Shown here: positions 8,818 to 32,944 of the stretch, piece by piece
Position numbering within the stretch: position 1 is the stretch's first letter
Layout: every line of letters begins with the position of its first letter
NCBI GenBank assembly: GCA_021647705.1
Contig: JAKIUF010000031.1
Span: 1 to 54,373, forward strand
From: Gammaproteobacteria bacterium
GTDB lineage: Bacteria > Pseudomonadota > Gammaproteobacteria > SZUA-152
Length of the DNA: 54,373 nucleotides
Direction: 5' to 3'
Notes under the pieces: generated by a model
Seen by the model: the letters and a program-made list of their open reading frames with translations, nothing else
Databases searched by the model: none
Told to the model about the DNA's origin: nothing
Position numbers and translations under genes: made by a program

Positions 8818-8894
8818 GCCCCGGTAGCTCAGTAGGATAGAGCAATCGCCTCCTAAGCGATAGGTCGGACGTTCGAATCGTCTCCGGGGCACCA
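8818..8894 (+). tRNA. tRNA-Arg(CCT)
   Basis: A complete cloverleaf. The acceptor GCCCCGG pairs with CCGGGGC (8884-8890) and is followed by discriminator A and encoded CCA. The D-arm is GCTC..GAGC. The anticodon stem is ATCGC/GCGAT with loop CTCCTAA, so the anticodon is CCT, reading AGG (Arg). The T-arm has the TTCGAAT loop. There are 77 bases including CCA. Confidence 0.95.
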
Positions 8895-23365: not shown

Positions 23366-26300
23366 TCAACCTTTATATTCAGAGAAGGCAAAGTGAGTAA
23401 TCTGTATCCCGCTCTCTCTTCGTTCTATCTGGATCCACAGCGGTCCTTGATAATGATCGCGTTTATTTTGACCGTTAGCCTGTACTTCAACATTATAAAT
23501 ACCTTCACCTCGGGCAATATCGCCATCCCATGTCCATCGCACGTCTTTAAAGGCTATCGTTCGGAATGAAGTACCATTAAACAGTCCAACATAATCTTCC
23601 CGAATACCCTTTACCGTAGCTCGATCATTAGTTTGGGCATCTTTTGCAAAAAGTTTCATGAAAGCTTCAATGTCGCCCGCCGCATAGGTGCTAATAAGCG
23701 TGCTCAATAATGCGTCCAGTTCTTTTTCTGGAATATGGCTAATAGGATTCGCGCCTACACTCGATTTGCCTGCATCAATTACAGGCTGCGTTTCCGCACG
23801 TTCAGTCACCACAACATTGGACGCGTAATAACGAATGATCTGTAACTCACCAGAATGACTTTCCACCTGTAGTGTCACGTCCCCATTTTCTTCATAGGTA
23901 GGCTGCCCATCCTTGCCCTGCACCGAAACCATATATTGCCCACCGCCACGGACATAACCGGTTTTTTGTTCCCAACTCATATTTCTAAATTGCATGCTAC
24001 GCCCGGTGCTACTTTTGAATAACGTTTGGTATTCACTTCGCACACCGGCTATATCAATCGATTTATTAGTACGCACTACAGGTGAATACAACCCTAACAG
24101 CGTATTCAAATCACCCGCTTGATATGCGGTAGTAAGCACCGTGAGCATTTTATCCAGGCTTGCAGGGCTGATCAGGCCAACTGATGCTGCCTGTGCAGCC
24201 GCCTTCGCTTTTGCCTCTTCCGCTGCCTTTGCCTGCGCTTTAGCGACGGCTTTTGCCTTGGCCTGCTCCTCTGCTCGAGCCTTGATTTCAGCCTCACGCT
24301 GGCGCTTGGCTATCGCTGTCGCTCTTAGTCTCGCTTGTGCGTCTGCTTTTGCGTCTGCTTTTGCTTGTGCGTCTGCTTTTGCTTTTGCTTGAGCCTCTGC
24401 TTCTGCCTTGGCTACCTCAGCTTGCGCTGCCGCTTTGGCAGCTTCTTCAGCAGCACTTGATAACAAAGCTGCCTGAGCTGCCTGTACCATTTCTAATGTC
24501 GCTACGTCTTCGTCGCTATTGACTTCATTAGCCAGTGGTTCCACTACAGGGGCAACAGCCGGTTTCGTTACCGGTTCTGCTACAACCACTGGCGCACTCG
24601 GCAAGCCAGCGGCCATTTCTGGCTCAGCGTCTCTCGTCATTTTGATTTGAGTCAACCACAAAACAAATACAATGACCGCAACACCAGCAATCAACATCAT
24701 ATTGCGAACGGTTGGGGCTGTGCGTGTACCCTCAGCAATCATTTCATTCGCATTCGCAGGCGGAGGACGCAACCCCGAATTAGTCGCACGGCCCATATTG
24801 GGCGACAAATCCAGATCTAATTCCTCTTCGAGATCCTCAACATCACTTGAAGGTTTCGCAATTTCTTCCGGGCGTGCTGTTATTTCAGAGCGACACAGAC
24901 ATTCATAAGCTGCGCCCACTCGTGATACACCACTTTCATCATTAAGCTTTTTATCCTGGCGTAACAGTTTCATCAATAAACCGTAGTGCGCTTCCACCTC
25001 GGTTAGGCTTGCATCCGATGCAAGACCTAATACACGAAAATCATCTCCGCCCGGTAAAAACAACACACGGCGCACAAAGAAGCGTACAGCCGCTCGCAGC
25101 ATGGCGGGGGAAATTCCCATTACAGCAATTTGACGCAAACCCAACAACATCTGGTCTTCGGCAATCGCCAACTCCAAAATCGCCTTAATACCTTTAGGTA
25201 GAGGCTGACTGGGATCGTCCAACCCCGGAAAACTCCGTGGTGAACGATGAAAAGCCAACACCAAACGCAGAATTTTGCGTAATACCACTTCTTTAGGATC
25301 TCCCGGCGCATCCGGCAGCGGTGCCATCACGCTCGGCGAAGGCTGATTGGCAGGACGTTCTGCCGTTGTTTCGGGCATGCTTACAGCAGCCTCTCTACCA
25401 CCGGCAATAACTCGAAAGCGCTCCATTTCCGCAGGCGCGTTGTTATTGCTGTCATCAATTTCAATATCATCCGGTTGCGCCTGCGCCACATGCTGCATCC
25501 ACCCATCATCAGGCATTACACGCTCCATCATGCCGCCATCTTCTGGGAAGGGAACAGCCACAGCAGCATGGCTGCTGTCGATATCCACAGTCTCAGGTTC
25601 ACGTGGTGAACTAACATCCGGTTTATCTATGTTAACTTCCCCAACTTCAACTCCCTGTGCGGGAACAGAGTCAGCAGCGGCTGTTTTGGATACACCGTTT
25701 ATTGCTTGAGGCGCATCCGCGGTTTCGTCAGGCACAATGTCAGGTAATACATCTGTGTTTATTTTTGCGGGCCGGGCAATTGGCCTACCAGAAATCTCAC
25801 TTTGCAACTCATCGGTAACTTCATGTAGTACATCCGCATTAATCGTATGCAGTTCTTCAAGGCTGCTAAACAGCAAAACCCGATCACATAACATATTGAT
25901 GCGTCGCGGCACACCCTCGGTATACCGGTAAATAATCTCAAACGCTTCATCGGTAAAATGGGGATCATCATTCCACCCAACATGCGCCAAACGGCTCTCC
26001 ACGTAGTTTTGACATTCATCTTCACCCAGCGCACTGAGGTGATAATTGGCAATCACACGTTGACGGAGTTGTTCCAGATCTGGGTGATCCAGCATTTGAC
26101 GAAATTGCACCTGACCAAGCAGGAAAGTCTGTAGCAACGCCTGCTCACCCACTTGCAGGTTAGAAAGCATGCGTAATTCTTCCAGCGAGCGGGCAGGCAG
26201 ATTCTGAGCCTCGTCCACTACCAGCAGTACCCGCTTGCGCTCACGGGAACGGGCCATGAAAAAAGCTTCCAGGGTTTTCAGCAAACCTGCCTTATCTTGA

Positions 26301-26602
26301 CCTTCATAGCGCAAGCCAAAAGAAGCCAGCACCATGCGCAGCATTTCGTCAGCTTCTAACTGAGTTGTGGTCAAATGAGCAACCACCACATCAGACTGAT
26401 CCATATCCTGCAAAAGAATTTGTGCCAGGGTCGTCTTACCCGTGCCCGGCGCACCGGTGATCACCACAAACCCTTCGGCCTGACTCAGCCCGTAACGTAA
26501 ATAAGCCAGGGCACGCTTGTGCCCACGACTGGCGAAAAAGAAGCTCGGGTCAGGACTAAGACGGAAGGGCTTGGCTCGCAGCTGATAAAAATTCTCGTAC
26601 AC
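23366..26602 (-). CDS. ExeA-type AAA ATPase fused to J-like, coiled-coil and two NTF2-like domains
   Basis: I start at the GTG at 26602 (read V in MYENFYQLRAKPF), the place where ExeA/GspA-type ATPases start, with AAGGGAA upstream; an ATG at 26650 adds 16 residues. Length is about 1078. The AAA part (about 1-270) has Walker A GAPGTGKTT, Walker B VLLVVDEAQNLP and RRINMLCDRVLL. A disordered acidic linker (to about 440) precedes a J-domain-like region without HPD (FRVLGLASDASLTEVEAHYGLLMKLLRQDKK). One transmembrane helix (MMLIAGVAVIVFVLWLTQI) and an Ala/Lys/Glu-rich coiled coil follow. Two tandem NTF2/SnoaL-like domains end the protein (LDKMLTVLTTAYQAGDLNTLLGLYS; LDALLSTLISTYAAGDIEAFMKLFA). The layout suggests an inner-membrane ATPase whose periplasmic part spans the wall and binds a ligand. 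It heads the polysaccharide cluster. Confidence 0.85.
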   Translation of the reverse strand: MYENFYQLRAKPFRLSPDPSFFFASRGHKRALAYLRYGLSQAEGFVVITGAPGTGKTTLAQILLQDMDQSDVVVAHLTTTQLEADEMLRMVLASFGLRYEGQDKAGLLKTLEAFFMARSRERKRVLLVVDEAQNLPARSLEELRMLSNLQVGEQALLQTFLLGQVQFRQMLDHPDLEQLRQRVIANYHLSALGEDECQNYVESRLAHVGWNDDPHFTDEAFEIIYRYTEGVPRRINMLCDRVLLFSSLEELHTINADVLHEVTDELQSEISGRPIARPAKINTDVLPDIVPDETADAPQAINGVSKTAAADSVPAQGVEVGEVNIDKPDVSSPREPETVDIDSSHAAVAVPFPEDGGMMERVMPDDGWMQHVAQAQPDDIEIDDSNNNAPAEMERFRVIAGGREAAVSMPETTAERPANQPSPSVMAPLPDAPGDPKEVVLRKILRLVLAFHRSPRSFPGLDDPSQPLPKGIKAILELAIAEDQMLLGLRQIAVMGISPAMLRAAVRFFVRRVLFLPGGDDFRVLGLASDASLTEVEAHYGLLMKLLRQDKKLNDESGVSRVGAAYECLCRSEITARPEEIAKPSSDVEDLEEELDLDLSPNMGRATNSGLRPPPANANEMIAEGTRTAPTVRNMMLIAGVAVIVFVLWLTQIKMTRDAEPEMAAGLPSAPVVVAEPVTKPAVAPVVEPLANEVNSDEDVATLEMVQAAQAALLSSAAEEAAKAAAQAEVAKAEAEAQAKAKADAQAKADAKADAQARLRATAIAKRQREAEIKARAEEQAKAKAVAKAQAKAAEEAKAKAAAQAASVGLISPASLDKMLTVLTTAYQAGDLNTLLGLYSPVVRTNKSIDIAGVRSEYQTLFKSSTGRSMQFRNMSWEQKTGYVRGGGQYMVSVQGKDGQPTYEENGDVTLQVESHSGELQIIRYYASNVVVTERAETQPVIDAGKSSVGANPISHIPEKELDALLSTLISTYAAGDIEAFMKLFAKDAQTNDRATVKGIREDYVGLFNGTSFRTIAFKDVRWTWDGDIARGEGIYNVEVQANGQNKRDHYQGPLWIQIERRESGIQITHFAFSEYKG

Positions 26603-27311
26603 GCTGAATTCCCTTATATATGGTTGATCTGGCTCTCTATCGGCCGTCATGAGGTCTACTTCACTCGGTTATCCGAAAACATCCGTTTAGCTCTAAAAGC
26701 GCTGAGATTCCGAGAAGACTATTTTACCACTAAATTCCGGTTTTTAAAGTAAAAACTTAAGGAAAAATGACCATTTCCACACAAATATTCACACTCTTAC
26801 TGTGGAAAATGTAAAACCAAACAATCTCAGACTAATTTCATCAGGAAACACCGTTTAAAATATGGGCCATGCCGAGGAGGACATTCGCCATCATTTTAAA
26901 ACTTCAAACCATTGTCGCTATTTGCAGCAATTAACTTAAACCAGCTCCAAACGACAGGACGTTCCTTAACATTCGTGATTTCACACACCGCACCCATTCG
27001 CCGAAACGGGAACTCGCAACCAAAACCCAAAAAAACGAGGATGCGCGCACACAGATAAGCTGGCGCATGAATGTCGATATAGGGTGATTGATGCTAACCC
27101 TACAACCGCCTAATCTCGACATAACAGCAAATCTATTTACTCGCAAAAAAACCGTAGCGCTGATTTTTCAAGCCACACAAAGACTTGCAAATTCGATATC
27201 CCTTTTGACTTGCAAGAATGTACAAATAATCGCCAGCTAATAACACTCACTAACTGCTGGTAGCTGACATTCAAGCATCAGAACTGTAATATCACGCACT
27301 GCTAGTGCCGC

Positions 27312-28302: not shown

Positions 28303-28664
28303 ATGGATACATTTTGTGATGGATAGCGTTAAGCGCCGAAATAAGCCTACACATGTTAATAACGTAATTTACAGATACACATACCAAGAAGCGTCGGGGT
28401 CAATGTTGAGGGTATTTTCAAGCCAGCTTGGGCGACCAAGCCTAACTTGATCTGCCTTACCCAATCGTAATGACAGAGGCATGCTTAATCTACATACCAC
28501 CGCTAGGCGCTGCTGACTTTTTGAGCAAAATTGCACATGCTTTCTGTAACATAAAGGAATATGCAGGTAACCCTTCTTTGAAGAATCGTTCAATGTATTT
28601 GACAAAAACACACAAACAATCAGACCTCCAGCACCATAATGACGACAAGCCTGAGGTTATGTTT

Positions 28665-29330
28665 ATGGTCTCAAATAAACCTGCACTTATTCTCAATTTG
28701 GGTGAATACAGCGATAAAGCGATTGAAGTACTGGAGTACAAGGTAACGCGCAATCCCCTGTATTTACGAAGCCATGTTCAAAGAATCTATCTTTACAGGA
28801 AAATTAAAAATGGCGAAGCTTTATATGGAGCCTTATTGGACTTATTCATAGCGCTCAACACTAAAGGTTTCGAAATAAGGCAGCGCTTATTGTTTGAATC
28901 CAAATGTTGCCTGGATTCTCATCATTTCAATGTGCTATACCAACGTTTAGGCAATGGCATAAATGCAGCAAGTGTATTGCCGTTAAGCCAATACTCGCGA
29001 CTCTCAAAAGGCTTGATCGGCACAATCAACTTACTCATCAACAATCATCAAGCCACACATGAGGCACGCGACCCTCAAGTGGAAGCGCATGAATATTTGG
29101 AATATGGGGAAGTTGATGAAGCAAGAAACATTTTAGAGGTCGCGGTATTAAAAGAGCCTTGGCGCAAAGAGTTACATATAGACTTACTTGAAATATATAA
29201 AGTATCTCGTGATGCGGACAATTGTGACGCAATGTATCGTCGACTGGCTGATAAATTTATTCCTGACCATCATGCATGGATACAAACGGCAAAACACATT
29301 CATCTGGCCACAGGAGATATAGATGGATAA
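28665..29330 (+). CDS. TPR (FimV-C-like) protein, first gene of the GTPase operon
   Basis: The frame is open from 28470. I favour the ATG at 28665 (MVSNKPALILNLGEYSDKAIEVLEYKV), with GAGG eight bases upstream; 28659 and 28593 are alternatives. This gives 221 residues. The N-terminal part (SDKAIEVLEYKVTRNPLYLRSHVQRIYLYRK) and the C-terminal DPQVEAHEYLEYGEVDEARNILEVAVLKEPWRKELHIDLLEIYK are TPR-like helical pairs, the latter resembling the FimV C-terminal motif. FimV-type proteins act at the cell pole. It has no signal or membrane segment. The stop overlaps the next gene by eight bases. A scaffold for the GTPase module is my inference. Confidence 0.68.
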   Translation: MVSNKPALILNLGEYSDKAIEVLEYKVTRNPLYLRSHVQRIYLYRKIKNGEALYGALLDLFIALNTKGFEIRQRLLFESKCCLDSHHFNVLYQRLGNGINAASVLPLSQYSRLSKGLIGTINLLINNHQATHEARDPQVEAHEYLEYGEVDEARNILEVAVLKEPWRKELHIDLLEIYKVSRDADNCDAMYRRLADKFIPDHHAWIQTAKHIHLATGDIDG

Positions 29331-30567
29331 TCACACAAGCCCTGTAAAAATTGCGGCATTAGGTATGGAGCAACGCACCTACAGTACGCTGCAGTTATTT
29401 TTTCATGAGCATTGCAAGGATAGTTACGTTCTGGTAGAGGAGAATTCTGCTGATATCAGCATAATAGATATGGATGGGTTCCAAGCGCGCAGAATGCTGG
29501 AAGAACATAAAAAGCACTACCCCAATCAACCTTCAATCCTGATTTCTCTCTCTCATGACAAGGCGCATGATGCCGTATATATTCGCAAACCAATTATGTT
29601 GGAAGCTCTTTCCTCAGCCTTGCTCAAAGCGAAAGAACGATTACAGCAATCCACGATAAAAGCGCCCACACTAAAAACACCTACTGTGGAAACAACCCCA
29701 CAATTACAAATGACTGCTACCCCCCCTGAAACAGCCGCTCCACTATTGCGGAATAATAATAATGTTGCGCATAACCATGACTCACACAAAACAGCGGGGC
29801 AGGAAAAATCAAGTTCCAAGCATTTTAATCAATACCGGTATTCAGCAAATTTTCTAACTGAAGACGCCGACCTGGAGCAGATCAACACCAAGCTGGCTGA
29901 AAACTTCAACCCCGACAACCCCATACAAACCGCCAAGTTTCAATATCAACCTGAGCAAACACTACAAGGTTATTTTCAGCAAGCATATTTCACCGCGCTG
30001 CAAACACAACAAAATGTACTCTTAAAAGGGGTTTGGCGTCCAATAACCATACTTCACAAATCAAAACAATTGAGAGTTGAAAAAAACTTTCGTCATTTAT
30101 ATGCGCTGTCTGGCATGCTTTTTGATAAATCCGACGTTTCCATCACTATCTTGGACAATAGCGTGGACTGTGAACCCCGCCTACATGAAACGGTCTTGCC
30201 GGCAGAACCTTTTTTATGGAAGCTGGCCATGCGCACATCACGCGGGCGTGTACCAGCAGACACAAATTTCACCGCACCCATCAAACTGATACGCTGGCCT
30301 AATTTCACACGGACAATCATCACACCGCATGCGCTCAGAATTGCTGCGCTATGGGCAAAGCAACCAACATCCCTGATGGACACAGCGAGCTATTTATCAG
30401 TTCCATTACAACATGTATTTATATTTTATACCGCAGCCGTTTCACTCAACTTTGTAACGCCTGTAATGACTGAAAAAAATCATGCAGCCGCTGCACTACC
30501 ACCGGCCAACCGTCACCGATACCGAAAAATCTTTCAAAATTTACTTGAGCGATTACGCAACAATTAA
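29323..30567 (+). CDS. Receiver-like protein with unknown C-terminal domain
   Basis: A 414-residue protein. Residues about 7-105 fold like a CheY receiver: IIDMDG gives Asp49 in the phospho-acceptor place, LISLS gives the Ser of strand 4, and YIRKP gives the conserved Lys89-Pro. The paired acidic residues after strand 1 are missing (ALGMEQ), so phosphorylation may be lost. A Thr/Pro/Asn-rich linker (about 108-170) precedes a domain of about 220 residues (GYFQQAYFTALQTQQNVLLKGVWRPITILHKSKQLRVEKNFRHLYALS .. PAEPFLWKLAMRTSRGRVP). The end LRIAALWAKQPTSLMDTASYLSVPLQHVFIFYTAAVSLNFV looks like a winged helix. I do not know this C-terminal family. It overlaps the TPR gene by eight bases and lies 33 bases before the GTPase gene. 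Confidence 0.7.
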   Translation: MDNHTSPVKIAALGMEQRTYSTLQLFFHEHCKDSYVLVEENSADISIIDMDGFQARRMLEEHKKHYPNQPSILISLSHDKAHDAVYIRKPIMLEALSSALLKAKERLQQSTIKAPTLKTPTVETTPQLQMTATPPETAAPLLRNNNNVAHNHDSHKTAGQEKSSSKHFNQYRYSANFLTEDADLEQINTKLAENFNPDNPIQTAKFQYQPEQTLQGYFQQAYFTALQTQQNVLLKGVWRPITILHKSKQLRVEKNFRHLYALSGMLFDKSDVSITILDNSVDCEPRLHETVLPAEPFLWKLAMRTSRGRVPADTNFTAPIKLIRWPNFTRTIITPHALRIAALWAKQPTSLMDTASYLSVPLQHVFIFYTAAVSLNFVTPVMTEKNHAAAALPPANRHRYRKIFQNLLERLRNN

Positions 30568-30600
30568 CATTGCGCCGAGCATTTGAAGTAATAAAAAACT

Positions 30601-31146
30601 ATGACAAATTATAAAATAATATTCACTGGTCCTGTTGGAGCCGGAAAAACGACCGCAATATCTTCGATTTGTGATCGCCCCCCTCTATCAACTGATAAAA
30701 TTGCAAGCGATATGACACGGGATGTCAAAAAAACAACGACTGTTGCATGCGACTATGGCACGGTTCGTTTAAGTGGAGGAGATTGCCTCCATCTCTATGG
30801 CACCCCAGGCCAGGAGCGCTTTGATTTCATGTGGGACATCCTGACATCAGGTGGAATCGGTTTAGTTTTACTGCTGGACAATACACGAGCAAACCCTTTC
30901 CAGGATATGGATTTTTTTCTTGAACAGTTCCAGGACTTTATCAACCAAACCCAAATCGCGATCGGTGTCACGCAAATGGACCGTAAGTCGGTACCCTGTA
31001 TTGATGATTACCATAACCATCTGAGCAAACAGGGATTGACTATTCCCATTTTTGATGTCGATGCCCGCAAACGACAAGATGTTTCATTATTGATTAAAGC
31101 ACTACTTTTTTCGCTTGACCCTGGCCTGATAGAAAACAATGACTGA
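30601..31146 (+). CDS. MglA-like small Ras-type GTPase
   Basis: A 181-residue prokaryotic small GTPase of the family that includes MglA (polarity switch of Myxococcus) and the Streptomyces conservon CvnD proteins. The P-loop is GPVGAGKT (10-17). Switch-2 is TPGQERF (68-74), with Thr in place of the DxxG Asp, as in this subfamily. TQMD (124-127) replaces the usual N/TKxD guanine motif. It has no lipid-anchor or membrane signal. Such GTPases cycle with roadblock/LC7 proteins as their activators, and two roadblock-type products lie directly downstream. The stop overlaps the next start by eight bases, so the products are probably made together. Confidence 0.88.
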   Translation: MTNYKIIFTGPVGAGKTTAISSICDRPPLSTDKIASDMTRDVKKTTTVACDYGTVRLSGGDCLHLYGTPGQERFDFMWDILTSGGIGLVLLLDNTRANPFQDMDFFLEQFQDFINQTQIAIGVTQMDRKSVPCIDDYHNHLSKQGLTIPIFDVDARKRQDVSLLIKALLFSLDPGLIENND

Positions 31147-31780
31147 TTTCACTATTAAAGAAAACCTCTACATTTATCCTACACCTGCTGGCGCATATTA
31201 TGCGGTATCAAGCCCTACGAATGATCCTGCAAAAAGATTATTACGTACACTGTTTCAATTCATGGAAACGCCATGCTTGACCATTGATGAATTACATCTA
31301 TACACAGGCATAAAAGATAAAAATGAGATTACTGCGCTATTAAAACGCATGCAAAGCCTGGATTGGCTACAAGGCTGCGAAGAACCACAGACCGCACCTT
31401 TAGGTGATTTTGAAGAAATATTACCCGGGTTGTTATCACCATTATCCAACAGAGGCAATGTATTGCTGGCTGACAACTTGGGATTCCATATTGCCTACAA
31501 TGGTTTTAATTACGAAACGGTGGAACAATTGTCCGCATTAAGCGCTGATATATCCTCTTTGCATGAACGACATATAGGGTTATTAGAAAATAACCTTGGT
31601 TTGAACTCCAGCGCTTGGGCCATCGTAGATGCTGCCGGGAACAGTCAAGTGGGGTTTTGGCCGTTGTATATCGGCGAGCAACGATTCGTATTGGTTATAG
31701 GCGGATTACCCCGCATGAACCAACCCATATTGATATCACTAATATGGGCTTTAAATATACGCTTTGCCAAAGAAAACTGA
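31139..31780 (+). CDS. Winged-helix plus roadblock-like protein
   Basis: A 213-residue protein. Its N-terminal third has a helix-turn-helix pattern (ETPCLTIDELHLYTGIKDKNEITALLKRMQSLDWLQGCEEP, about 42-82), like the winged-helix parts found beside conservon GTPases. Residues about 85-210 read like a roadblock/LC7 fold (LLSPLSNRGNVLLADNLGFHIAYNGFNYETVEQLSALSADISSLHERHIG .. WPLYIGEQRFVLVIGGLPRMNQP). No catalytic residues are seen. It is translationally coupled to the GTPase, so a direct regulator (GAP- or scaffold-like) is likely by context. Family assignment is by pattern only. Confidence 0.65.
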   Translation: MTDFTIKENLYIYPTPAGAYYAVSSPTNDPAKRLLRTLFQFMETPCLTIDELHLYTGIKDKNEITALLKRMQSLDWLQGCEEPQTAPLGDFEEILPGLLSPLSNRGNVLLADNLGFHIAYNGFNYETVEQLSALSADISSLHERHIGLLENNLGLNSSAWAIVDAAGNSQVGFWPLYIGEQRFVLVIGGLPRMNQPILISLIWALNIRFAKEN

Positions 31781-31819
31781 CACCGCCCTTTAATTCCAAC
31801 AGACGATAGAGAAAGATAG

Positions 31820-32410
31820 ATGATAGATAAAAAAGGAAATATTATTAAGCCCGACTTTATTGAGCTTACACGTTATGCTAAACAATTTTCAGGTTTAACA
31901 ATTGAAAAAGAAAATGTACTATTAAGCGCTAATGATGAGCTTGCTCCATTACTTAATGTAGTAACTGATAATTTTTACGAGGCAATGAGCAATATACCTG
32001 AGGCCGCATCCTATCTGGAAGGACGTATAACGGGACTGAAACAAACCCATTTAAACTGGATGAACAGCATTTTCACCGGTCCTTATAATGAAAAATATAC
32101 AGAGTCAATGTATGATGTTGGCGACATTCACGTCCGAGTTAATCTACCCGTGGAATTCATGAGTGGTGGTGTTACTCTTATATGCAACGAGCTTTATCGA
32201 ATAATTTTTGAGGTGTATGGTACGGATTCTGCGAAAGCACACAGCATCATTAGCGCCGTAAACTCTGCGCTGGGGTTTTCCCTATTTGTAATGCAAAAGT
32301 CCTATAATGCTTCCGTCGATGAAGCGCTGGATAAATTTTTATTAATAACAGGCATGAGCGAAGCCTTATTTGCAAAATTATCTTCCTCATTCAACACAAC
32401 AAAACCTTGA
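31820..32410 (+). CDS. Protoglobin-type heme sensor domain protein
   Basis: A 196-residue stand-alone globin of the protoglobin/globin-coupled-sensor type. The hallmark segment DVGDIHVRVNLPVEFMSGG carries the likely proximal heme His (His104). The preceding LKQTHLNWMNSIFTGPYNEKYTESM (71-97) is the conserved helix before it. No output domain is fused, which differs from most globin-coupled sensors; the signal must pass to a partner. It lies between the winged-helix/roadblock gene (39 bases upstream) and the roadblock gene (42 bases downstream). It would bind O2, NO or CO. The link to the GTPase is inferred from the operon. Confidence 0.8.
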   Translation: MIDKKGNIIKPDFIELTRYAKQFSGLTIEKENVLLSANDELAPLLNVVTDNFYEAMSNIPEAASYLEGRITGLKQTHLNWMNSIFTGPYNEKYTESMYDVGDIHVRVNLPVEFMSGGVTLICNELYRIIFEVYGTDSAKAHSIISAVNSALGFSLFVMQKSYNASVDEALDKFLLITGMSEALFAKLSSSFNTTKP

Positions 32411-32452
32411 ATCTTATTCAACCTGACACCTTACTAGTAGGAGCACATAATA

Positions 32453-32815
32453 ATGCGACAAGAAATGCTTGGTTCAATTCTCAACGAGCTGAACGGCTCA
32501 TCAGTAGACATAGAAGCGTCAGCAGTAATTTCAACTGATGGATTGTTGATTTCATCCGTATTACCACAAGACATGGACGAGGACCGTGTCGGCGCAATGA
32601 GCGCAGCCATGATCTCGCTCGGAGATCGAACGGCGCAAGAATTAGCTAGGGGTGACTTAGAACAAGTACTTGTTAAAGGCAACACAGGCTATATTCTGAT
32701 GACCTACGCGGGTCAGGATGCGGTAATCACTGTACTAGCCAAACCAAAAGCAAAGCTTGGTTTAATTTTTCTTGATGTAAAGCGGGCAGCGGAAAATATT
32801 GCCAAGGTGCTTTAA
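32453..32815 (+). CDS. Roadblock/LC7 domain protein (MglB-like)
   Basis: A 120-residue single-domain roadblock/LC7 protein, the family of MglB-type GTPase-activating or nucleotide-exchange partners. The sequence follows the fold closely: MLGSILNELNGSSVDIEASAVISTDGLLISSVLPQDMDEDRVGAMSAAMISLGDRTAQELARGDLEQVLVKGNTGYILMTYAGQDAVITVLAKPKAKLGLIFLDVKRAAENIAKVL. It has AGGAG nine bases before the ATG. It is the last gene of the GTPase operon and is followed by a GC-rich hairpin. Partner: the GTPase encoded at 30601-31146 (by context). Confidence 0.92.
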   Translation: MRQEMLGSILNELNGSSVDIEASAVISTDGLLISSVLPQDMDEDRVGAMSAAMISLGDRTAQELARGDLEQVLVKGNTGYILMTYAGQDAVITVLAKPKAKLGLIFLDVKRAAENIAKVL

Positions 32816-32844
32816 ACAGGTGATACAACGAACATAGGTAGGTC

Positions 32845-32860
32845 GCGCGCTACTGCGCGC
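32845..32860 (+). terminator. GC-rich hairpin after the GTPase operon
   Basis: GCGCGC (32845-32850), loop TACT, GCGCGC (32855-32860), then GCTTTATC. The U-run is short, so it is a weak or factor-assisted terminator at the end of the operon. Confidence 0.5.
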
Positions 32861-32944
32861 GCTTTATCATGCTACCCCGATCGAAGCCATAAACAAGACG
32901 CTACGCAAAGCGTTTCCCGATAATCTTCAGTCAATCATGCCACA

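Follow-up and report, generated by a model that had tools for sequence, protein, structure and literature searches.

We found a stand-alone protoglobin gene embedded in a six-gene operon that also encodes an MglA-type small GTPase, roadblock partners and a winged-helix/roadblock protein. The operon lies in a 54,373-nucleotide stretch of gammaproteobacterial DNA (the window hereafter), which is contig C42 of genome G000 (4.44 Mb in 82 contigs). Without the globin, the core of this operon belongs to a known type, the Group 3 MglA systems, because its GTPase motifs and partner proteins are the marks of that group. The globin is a real but optional operon partner. Our favoured explanation, which we place slightly above even chances, is that the operon is a Group 3 MglA-type switch to which a free heme globin adds a sensory input: it docks on the small roadblock protein encoded by the last gene (ROB) and biases the switch.

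All six reading frames lie on the plus strand at about 28593-32815, separated by gaps of 33, 39 and 42 bases, with two gene pairs overlapping by 8 bases each. This agrees with the tightly packed, same-strand operon described in an initial annotation of the sequence, and with its claim that a single-domain protoglobin is a true member alongside the GTPase and its roadblock and winged-helix/roadblock partners. The features are as follows:

28593-29330, plus strand: TPR-like protein, probably 245 amino acids (start moved from 28665 to include the N-terminus conserved in relatives)
29323-30567, plus strand: receiver-like protein (REC), 414 amino acids, with a receiver-like domain, a variable linker and a C-terminal helical region; 8-base overlap with the TPR-like gene
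30601-31146, plus strand: MglA-like small GTPase with Group 3 motifs, 33 bases after the receiver-like gene
31139-31780, plus strand: winged-helix/roadblock protein (WHR, the marker gene of the operon), winged-helix-like at residues ~10-80 and with a roadblock/LC7 fold at ~89-211; 8-base overlap with the GTPase gene
31820-32410, plus strand: single-domain protoglobin, 196 amino acids, with a conserved C-terminal tail at residues ~165-192; 39 bases after the WHR gene
32453-32815, plus strand: ROB, a roadblock/LC7 (MglB-like) protein of 120 amino acids, 42 bases after the globin gene
32844-32861, plus strand: terminator-like hairpin with a weak T tract, 3' of the ROB gene

The hairpin is a consensus match only, and the window holds 10 such terminator-like sites where 5.0 are expected; sigma-70-like promoter sites (12 found, 12.6 expected) are uninformative. 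The first gene probably starts at 28593 and not at 28665, because relatives conserve its protein from the ATG at that position. The TPR gene of the initial annotation is present and TPR-like, but its start has moved, and Pfam TPR models match it only below their cut-off (E 0.006; none at E≤0.001 for 28593-29327). In comparison with relative L055, nonsynonymous divergence (dN) is well below synonymous divergence (dS) in all six genes, as it is in the five genes tested against relative L043; for the globin, dN/dS values are 0.050/0.534 against L055 and 0.112/0.832 against a second relative. The gene order (TPR-)REC-GTPase-WHR-globin-ROB recurs in relatives and in several other families, so that the objection raised beforehand, an order found in no other genome, does not hold.

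Group 3 MglA identity of the operon core

Wuichet & Sogaard-Andersen described the Group 3 arrangement in 2014 as a receiver-linker-wHTH (winged helix-turn-helix) protein with an MglA and one or two MglB proteins, found in beta- and gammaproteobacteria, with an MglA that lacks the usual Asp in G3 and the Lys in G4 and carries DAR in G5 (PMC4316618). The GTPase of the window has TPGQ as G3, without the usual Asp, TQMD as G4, without Lys, and VDAR as G5. It is accompanied by a protein with a receiver-like N-terminus and a variable linker and by two roadblock proteins, ROB recognized by Pfam and WHR by structure, in a gammaproteobacterial host (the nearest named relatives, at 80-90%, are Gammaproteobacteria). 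The operon differs from the Group 3 systems of the 2014 paper, the main text of which has no word beginning with 'globin', in its additional stand-alone protoglobin and TPR-like gene. As its core is Group 3 MglA, we rejected the idea of a wholly unprecedented operon: from the earlier statement that no described system was known to have a single-domain heme globin in its operon, the globin addition survives, but the remaining core matches a kind described in 2014 (PMC4316618). The motifs quoted at that stage (GPVGAGKT, TPGQERF and DVGDIHVRVNLP) are all present in the operon proteins.

Actinobacterial conservons (CvnA-D) also combine an MglA-type GTPase with an MglB-type roadblock protein in one operon, but they include a histidine kinase, in place of which receiver-like and WHR proteins and a globin are found here; a conservon identity was rejected, as no kinase (CvnA) match occurs among the six genes. 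The Myxococcus polarity module MglA/MglB/RomR (Group 1) shares the logic of a GTPase with a roadblock protein and a receiver-containing partner, but it belongs to another MglA group, and its mglA is not near the AglZ, FrzS and RomR genes (PMC4316618).

Pfam places the GTPase in ATP_bind_1 (E 3.5e-10) and Ras (E 1.5e-6), ROB in Robl_LC7 (E 4.2e-16) and the globin in the protoglobin family (PF11563; E 2.8e-20, 73.3 bits with a cut-off of 25), with no second domain in the latter. WHR reaches Robl_LC7 only at E 0.25, below the Pfam cut-off, and the receiver-like protein has no Pfam match above cut-off. The AlphaFold model of WHR, built from 14 sequences with a predicted local distance difference test score (pLDDT) of 88.7, has its elements beyond residue 89 arranged in the roadblock order, and residues ~89-211 match roadblock-fold chains, MglB among them (Foldseek best E 1e-4; against a roadblock-fold chain, VIA Z 10.5 and root-mean-square deviation, rmsd, 3.1 over 108 aligned residues). 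The sequence profiles of WHR and ROB show no link (hhalign probability 0.9%), and the two proteins are linked by fold only. WHR residues ~10-80 look like a winged helix by their secondary structure only. In the receiver-like protein, residues ~5-117 match receiver domains (Z 13.5, rmsd 1.9, 107 aligned), and an alignment of 20 relatives shows Asp51 and Pro90 without exception and Lys89 in at least 90%. Its linker (113-169) has pLDDT values below 50 and is variable in the alignment; the model further contains helices within 337-374 plus a strand. The structural matches listed cover neither this C-terminal part nor the winged-helix part of WHR, which excludes nothing for either region.

For Group 3 systems, the 2014 authors propose transcription control via the wHTH output (PMC4316618). 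In Snodgrassella, which has a Group 3 MglA, a strain mutated in an orphan mglB produced motile flares when grown on soft agar, and its authors interpret these as a change in type IV pilus motility (PMC11112851). The genome studied here has six PilT-family matches over cut-off, and the operon may, we infer, have a polarity or motility output. Openly licensed PubMed Central (PMC) literature yielded little experimental work on Group 3 systems: three papers combine MglA with Xanthomonas and roadblock and, since 2015, none combines MglA, MglB, gammaproteobacteria and twitching.

The protoglobin and its ties to the operon

Globin-coupled sensors such as DosC and HemAT consist of a globin fused to a transmitter. 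The protoglobin of the window has a homologous globin domain with the same heme-pocket positions as DosC, HemAT and the 5ohe kinase, but it is a free protein of 196 amino acids with a short tail and without a transmitter domain. Among 81 aligned globin rows, a few of which derive from overlapping loci, Tyr53 (B10) is kept in all 80 rows having a letter there, His77 (E11) in 78 of 81 and His104 (F8) in 79 of 81. Tyr53 and His104 align with positions 45 and 99 of 5ohe, a globin-coupled histidine kinase chain, which we take to be the heme residues of that chain, and the counterpart of His77 is position 66 of chain 2w31, presumably GsGCS. The His66(E11) of GsGCS has been named as hexacoordinating (PMC4476040). 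The protein of the window is a predicted heme protein and probably senses oxygen or nitric oxide.

The globin domain is followed by a tail of about 25 residues, the motif of which is present in 81 of 91 short globin reading frames and in 0 of 35 long ones; it was defined after looking, and with an earlier, stricter pattern the counts were 62 of 91 and 0 of 35. A free globin with such a conserved tail would fit a docking element.

In its own family, the globin occurs at 80-100% identity in six of 24 genomes (our own included), always in the order REC-GTPase-WHR-globin-ROB, and two further genomes have only distant globin matches (22-26%). Among 369 genomes sampled from the class, 12 contain a globin match at E≤1e-8 and 40 contain WHR; ten of the 12 genomes with the globin also hold WHR, compared with the 40 of 369 overall. 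The exceptions are G252 and G213, the latter with a roadblock gene directly 5' of the globin. At E≤1e-17, a limit chosen once the results had been seen, WHR is held by nine of nine class genomes with the globin (P 8.6e-10, which takes no account of kinship), and by family it is held by seven of seven globin families (P about 4e-7 to 8e-7, resting on assumed, not counted, family totals of 165 or 181).

A scan of named genomes gave 57 globin loci, some of which are the same places as in the class sample (e.g. L146-L150, L156, L158, L164, L199). Clusters were listed with author-set bit thresholds, and L202, a long protein below the globin threshold, was counted as having no operon gene. The globin is clustered with REC and WHR at 15 of the 57 loci, 12 of which also have the GTPase, and ROB lies in the cluster of the globin at 26; at one further locus, L162, the contig breaks off directly behind the globin. 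Genome-wide searches covered 46 of the loci, corresponding to 45 genomes, and WHR is held by 40 of these 45. Arrangements vary: the globin stands on either side of ROB within the operon, or forms an isolated globin-ROB or ROB-globin pair, as in Methylomonas, Methylobacter, a Bathymodiolus endosymbiont, Methylophaga, Thiothrix fructosivorans, Acidocella and Acidithiobacillus. Two Roadblock/LC7-protoglobin fusions of Acidocella (L192 7561-8478 and L195 2160-3041) occur beside a separate pair. In-operon rows need five changes on the globin tree, at least three of them forced by well-supported branches; with long branches that leave deep placement unsure, the tree fits several gains or one gain with losses.

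Several observations weigh against a tight link between globin and switch. Only 7 of the 40 class genomes with WHR carry the globin inside the operon, for which it is therefore optional, and in two further ones (G325, G326) the closer globin form sits elsewhere. Thirty of the 57 globin loci have no operon gene nearby, a few of them at contig ends; they include 13 of Marinobacterium and relatives, several of Thiothrix-like genomes, Wohlfahrtiimonas and others, and two (L201, L202) are long multi-domain proteins. Marinobacterium has one to three globins beside other genes such as ilvC, and seven Marinobacterium-type loci (L166, L168, L172, L175, L182, L184, L189) have three tandem single-domain protoglobin genes, located at L175 between ilvC and a CDP-alcohol phosphatidyltransferase gene. 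Three loci (L156, L158, L163) have the order REC-WHR-globin-ROB without a GTPase, and both fused Acidocella globins, with Lys instead of His at F8, may be heme-free.

Downstream of the core, 12 of the 37 WHR clusters listed, though not that of the window, have genes for a PAS protein of one domain and for a PhnD-like substrate-binding protein; an example is L165 7766-9031, where the PhnD-like protein starts without an evident signal peptide. This suggests that such operons gather several sensory inputs.

Heme, redox and roadblock pairings elsewhere

HGbRL, a globin-Roadblock fusion of Methylacidiphilum, likewise couples a heme globin to a Roadblock/LC7 domain, and its authors propose a signal relay to the roadblock domain (PMC4476040). 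In contrast to the free protoglobin, HGbRL is one fused protein, and its globin is not a protoglobin but belongs to a bacterial group with Tyr(B10)/Gln(E7) to which HGbI is related; its operon has a methyltransferase, and the MglA-like gene of that genome adjoins another roadblock gene (PMC4476040). In openly licensed PMC literature, no paper was found that joins protoglobin with roadblock and GTPase, or protoglobin with MglB. A globin-coupled sensor together with MglA appears in the HGbRL paper only, and globin together with roadblock/LC7 in that paper, an HGb-I paper and one off-subject paper on wheat-germ translation.

A control covered 359 genomes of the phylum, 99 of them with a protoglobin match, and 11 loci besides the window with reading frames of at most 260 amino acids (one of the 11, G718, is a Marinobacterium, the family of which was already covered); the longer protoglobin locus of the window's own genome was taken along. 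Four of these 11 loci (L276, L277, L279, L280), all of one genus from another class of the same phylum, have the order ODP-ROB-globin, ODP being an oxygen-binding diiron protein, and two of the four have an MglA-like GTPase close by; as roadblock genes were sought with our own ROB profile, divergent ones could have escaped notice in the other seven loci. An ODP gene also adjoins the globin in an Acidithiobacillus and in a metagenome-assembled genome (MAG) of Polyangia. In Treponema denticola, ODP senses O2 for chemotaxis (PMC7666581).

A second such GTPase of the genome, with VDAR as G5, is encoded on contig C75 in a minus-strand cluster (L054 4453-10216). The order of this cluster is REC-GTPase-(ABC ATPase+phosphatase)-small protein-CxxCxxCC protein-(2Fe-2S+FAD+NAD+truncated hemoglobin), and its truncated hemoglobin is unrelated to protoglobin. 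When 12 clusters of this type were compared, the hemoglobin was present in six (as a separate protein in L297) and absent in three, while three end at a contig end. That a protoglobin is paired with a Ras-like switch in distant bacteria too suggests that gases can steer such switches.

The genome also encodes a protoglobin-GGDEF protein (contig C82, ~28650-29690; L283 2448-3491), by domain make-up an ordinary globin-coupled diguanylate cyclase. Elsewhere in the window, the minus strand encodes at 23366-26650 a protein of 1094 amino acids that has an AAA domain at its N-terminus and a long stretch rich in Ala and Lys, and Rfam detects a single tRNA, at 8818.

Proposed mechanism and competing explanations

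In the switch that we propose, the protoglobin would bind heme via His104, with Tyr53 and His77 on the distal side, and O2 (or NO, or redox state) would change the form of the globin. The globin would then dock on ROB, probably through its conserved C-terminal tail, and docking would alter the effect of ROB and WHR on both the GTPase and the receiver-wHTH output protein. The output would probably be transcription and/or type IV pilus behaviour.

Alternatively, the globin could control the roadblock/receiver-wHTH part and hence transcription, with the GTPase as a separate, dispensable input, which we consider rather unlikely. The three globin-bearing operons without a GTPase point in this direction, as no related GTPase was found at E≤1e-6 in their genomes, all of them MAGs, in which absence is not final (L156 and L158 correspond to G338, which is 79% complete, and G123, respectively). 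The GTPase is missing also from the TPR-REC-WHR-ROB operons of Marinobacterium in four of four examined (L223-L226), and for two of the four, one of them from a complete chromosome, none was found in the rest of the genome either. The GTPase is therefore not needed for the pairing of globin and operon, and the roadblock/receiver part is the steadier partner of the globin; the wHTH output suggested in the 2014 paper would suit this alternative as well (PMC4316618). On the other side, the GTPase is kept in 12 of the 15 globin-bearing operons, and 390 of 449 small MglA proteins in the 2014 survey are coupled to an MglB (PMC4316618).

It is unlikely that the globin is a redox sensor instead of a gas sensor, with a bis-histidyl heme (His77 and His104) switched by the oxidation state of the iron. 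The strongly kept His77 and its alignment with the hexacoordinating His66(E11) of GsGCS (PMC4476040) would agree with such a role, as would the fusion of the second cluster's hemoglobin to 2Fe-2S/FAD/NAD domains, whereas the distal Tyr in all 80 rows and the O2-binding ODP encoded near the globin in three lineages argue for a gas; moreover, bis-histidyl-type sites may still bind O2.

A globin that detoxifies NO or O2, or stores O2, and is merely co-expressed with the operon appears highly unlikely. NO dioxygenase activity is possible for globins (PMC3820574), and the truncated hemoglobin of the second cluster carries attached reductase domains, but no reductase is found among the six operon genes, across families the globin goes together with ROB and the WHR operon, and catalysis would leave the conserved tail unexplained. 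A globin inserted and passively inherited without a functional link has a very remote chance: the order in its own family could simply be inherited, the globin is optional and its tree is undecided between several gains and one gain with losses, but the several arrangements, the isolated globin-ROB pairs, the fusions, the clusters in another class and the low dN all speak against it.

Beyond the switch proposed for the window, we tentatively suggest, at rather less than even chances, that a free globin serves as the sensory subunit of a roadblock/Ras-like module, that globins have been recruited repeatedly in this way, and that MglA-type GTPases in general take O2, NO or redox state as an input. 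The cases of such recruitment would be the protoglobin described here, the ferredoxin-reductase-linked truncated hemoglobin of the second cluster, and the protoglobin with ODP in another class. Methylomonas and Methylobacter, which are cultivable and in part genetically tractable, carry both the globin-ROB pair and the operon.

To our knowledge, the signals that feed prokaryotic Ras-like GTPases are poorly known. For Group 3 systems, no input is proposed in the excerpts of the literature consulted. A conserved heme protein beside a roadblock regulator offers a concrete candidate for such an input (O2, NO or redox) and for its point of contact (globin to roadblock). If true, a globin could in this way pass on a signal although no output domain is fused to it.

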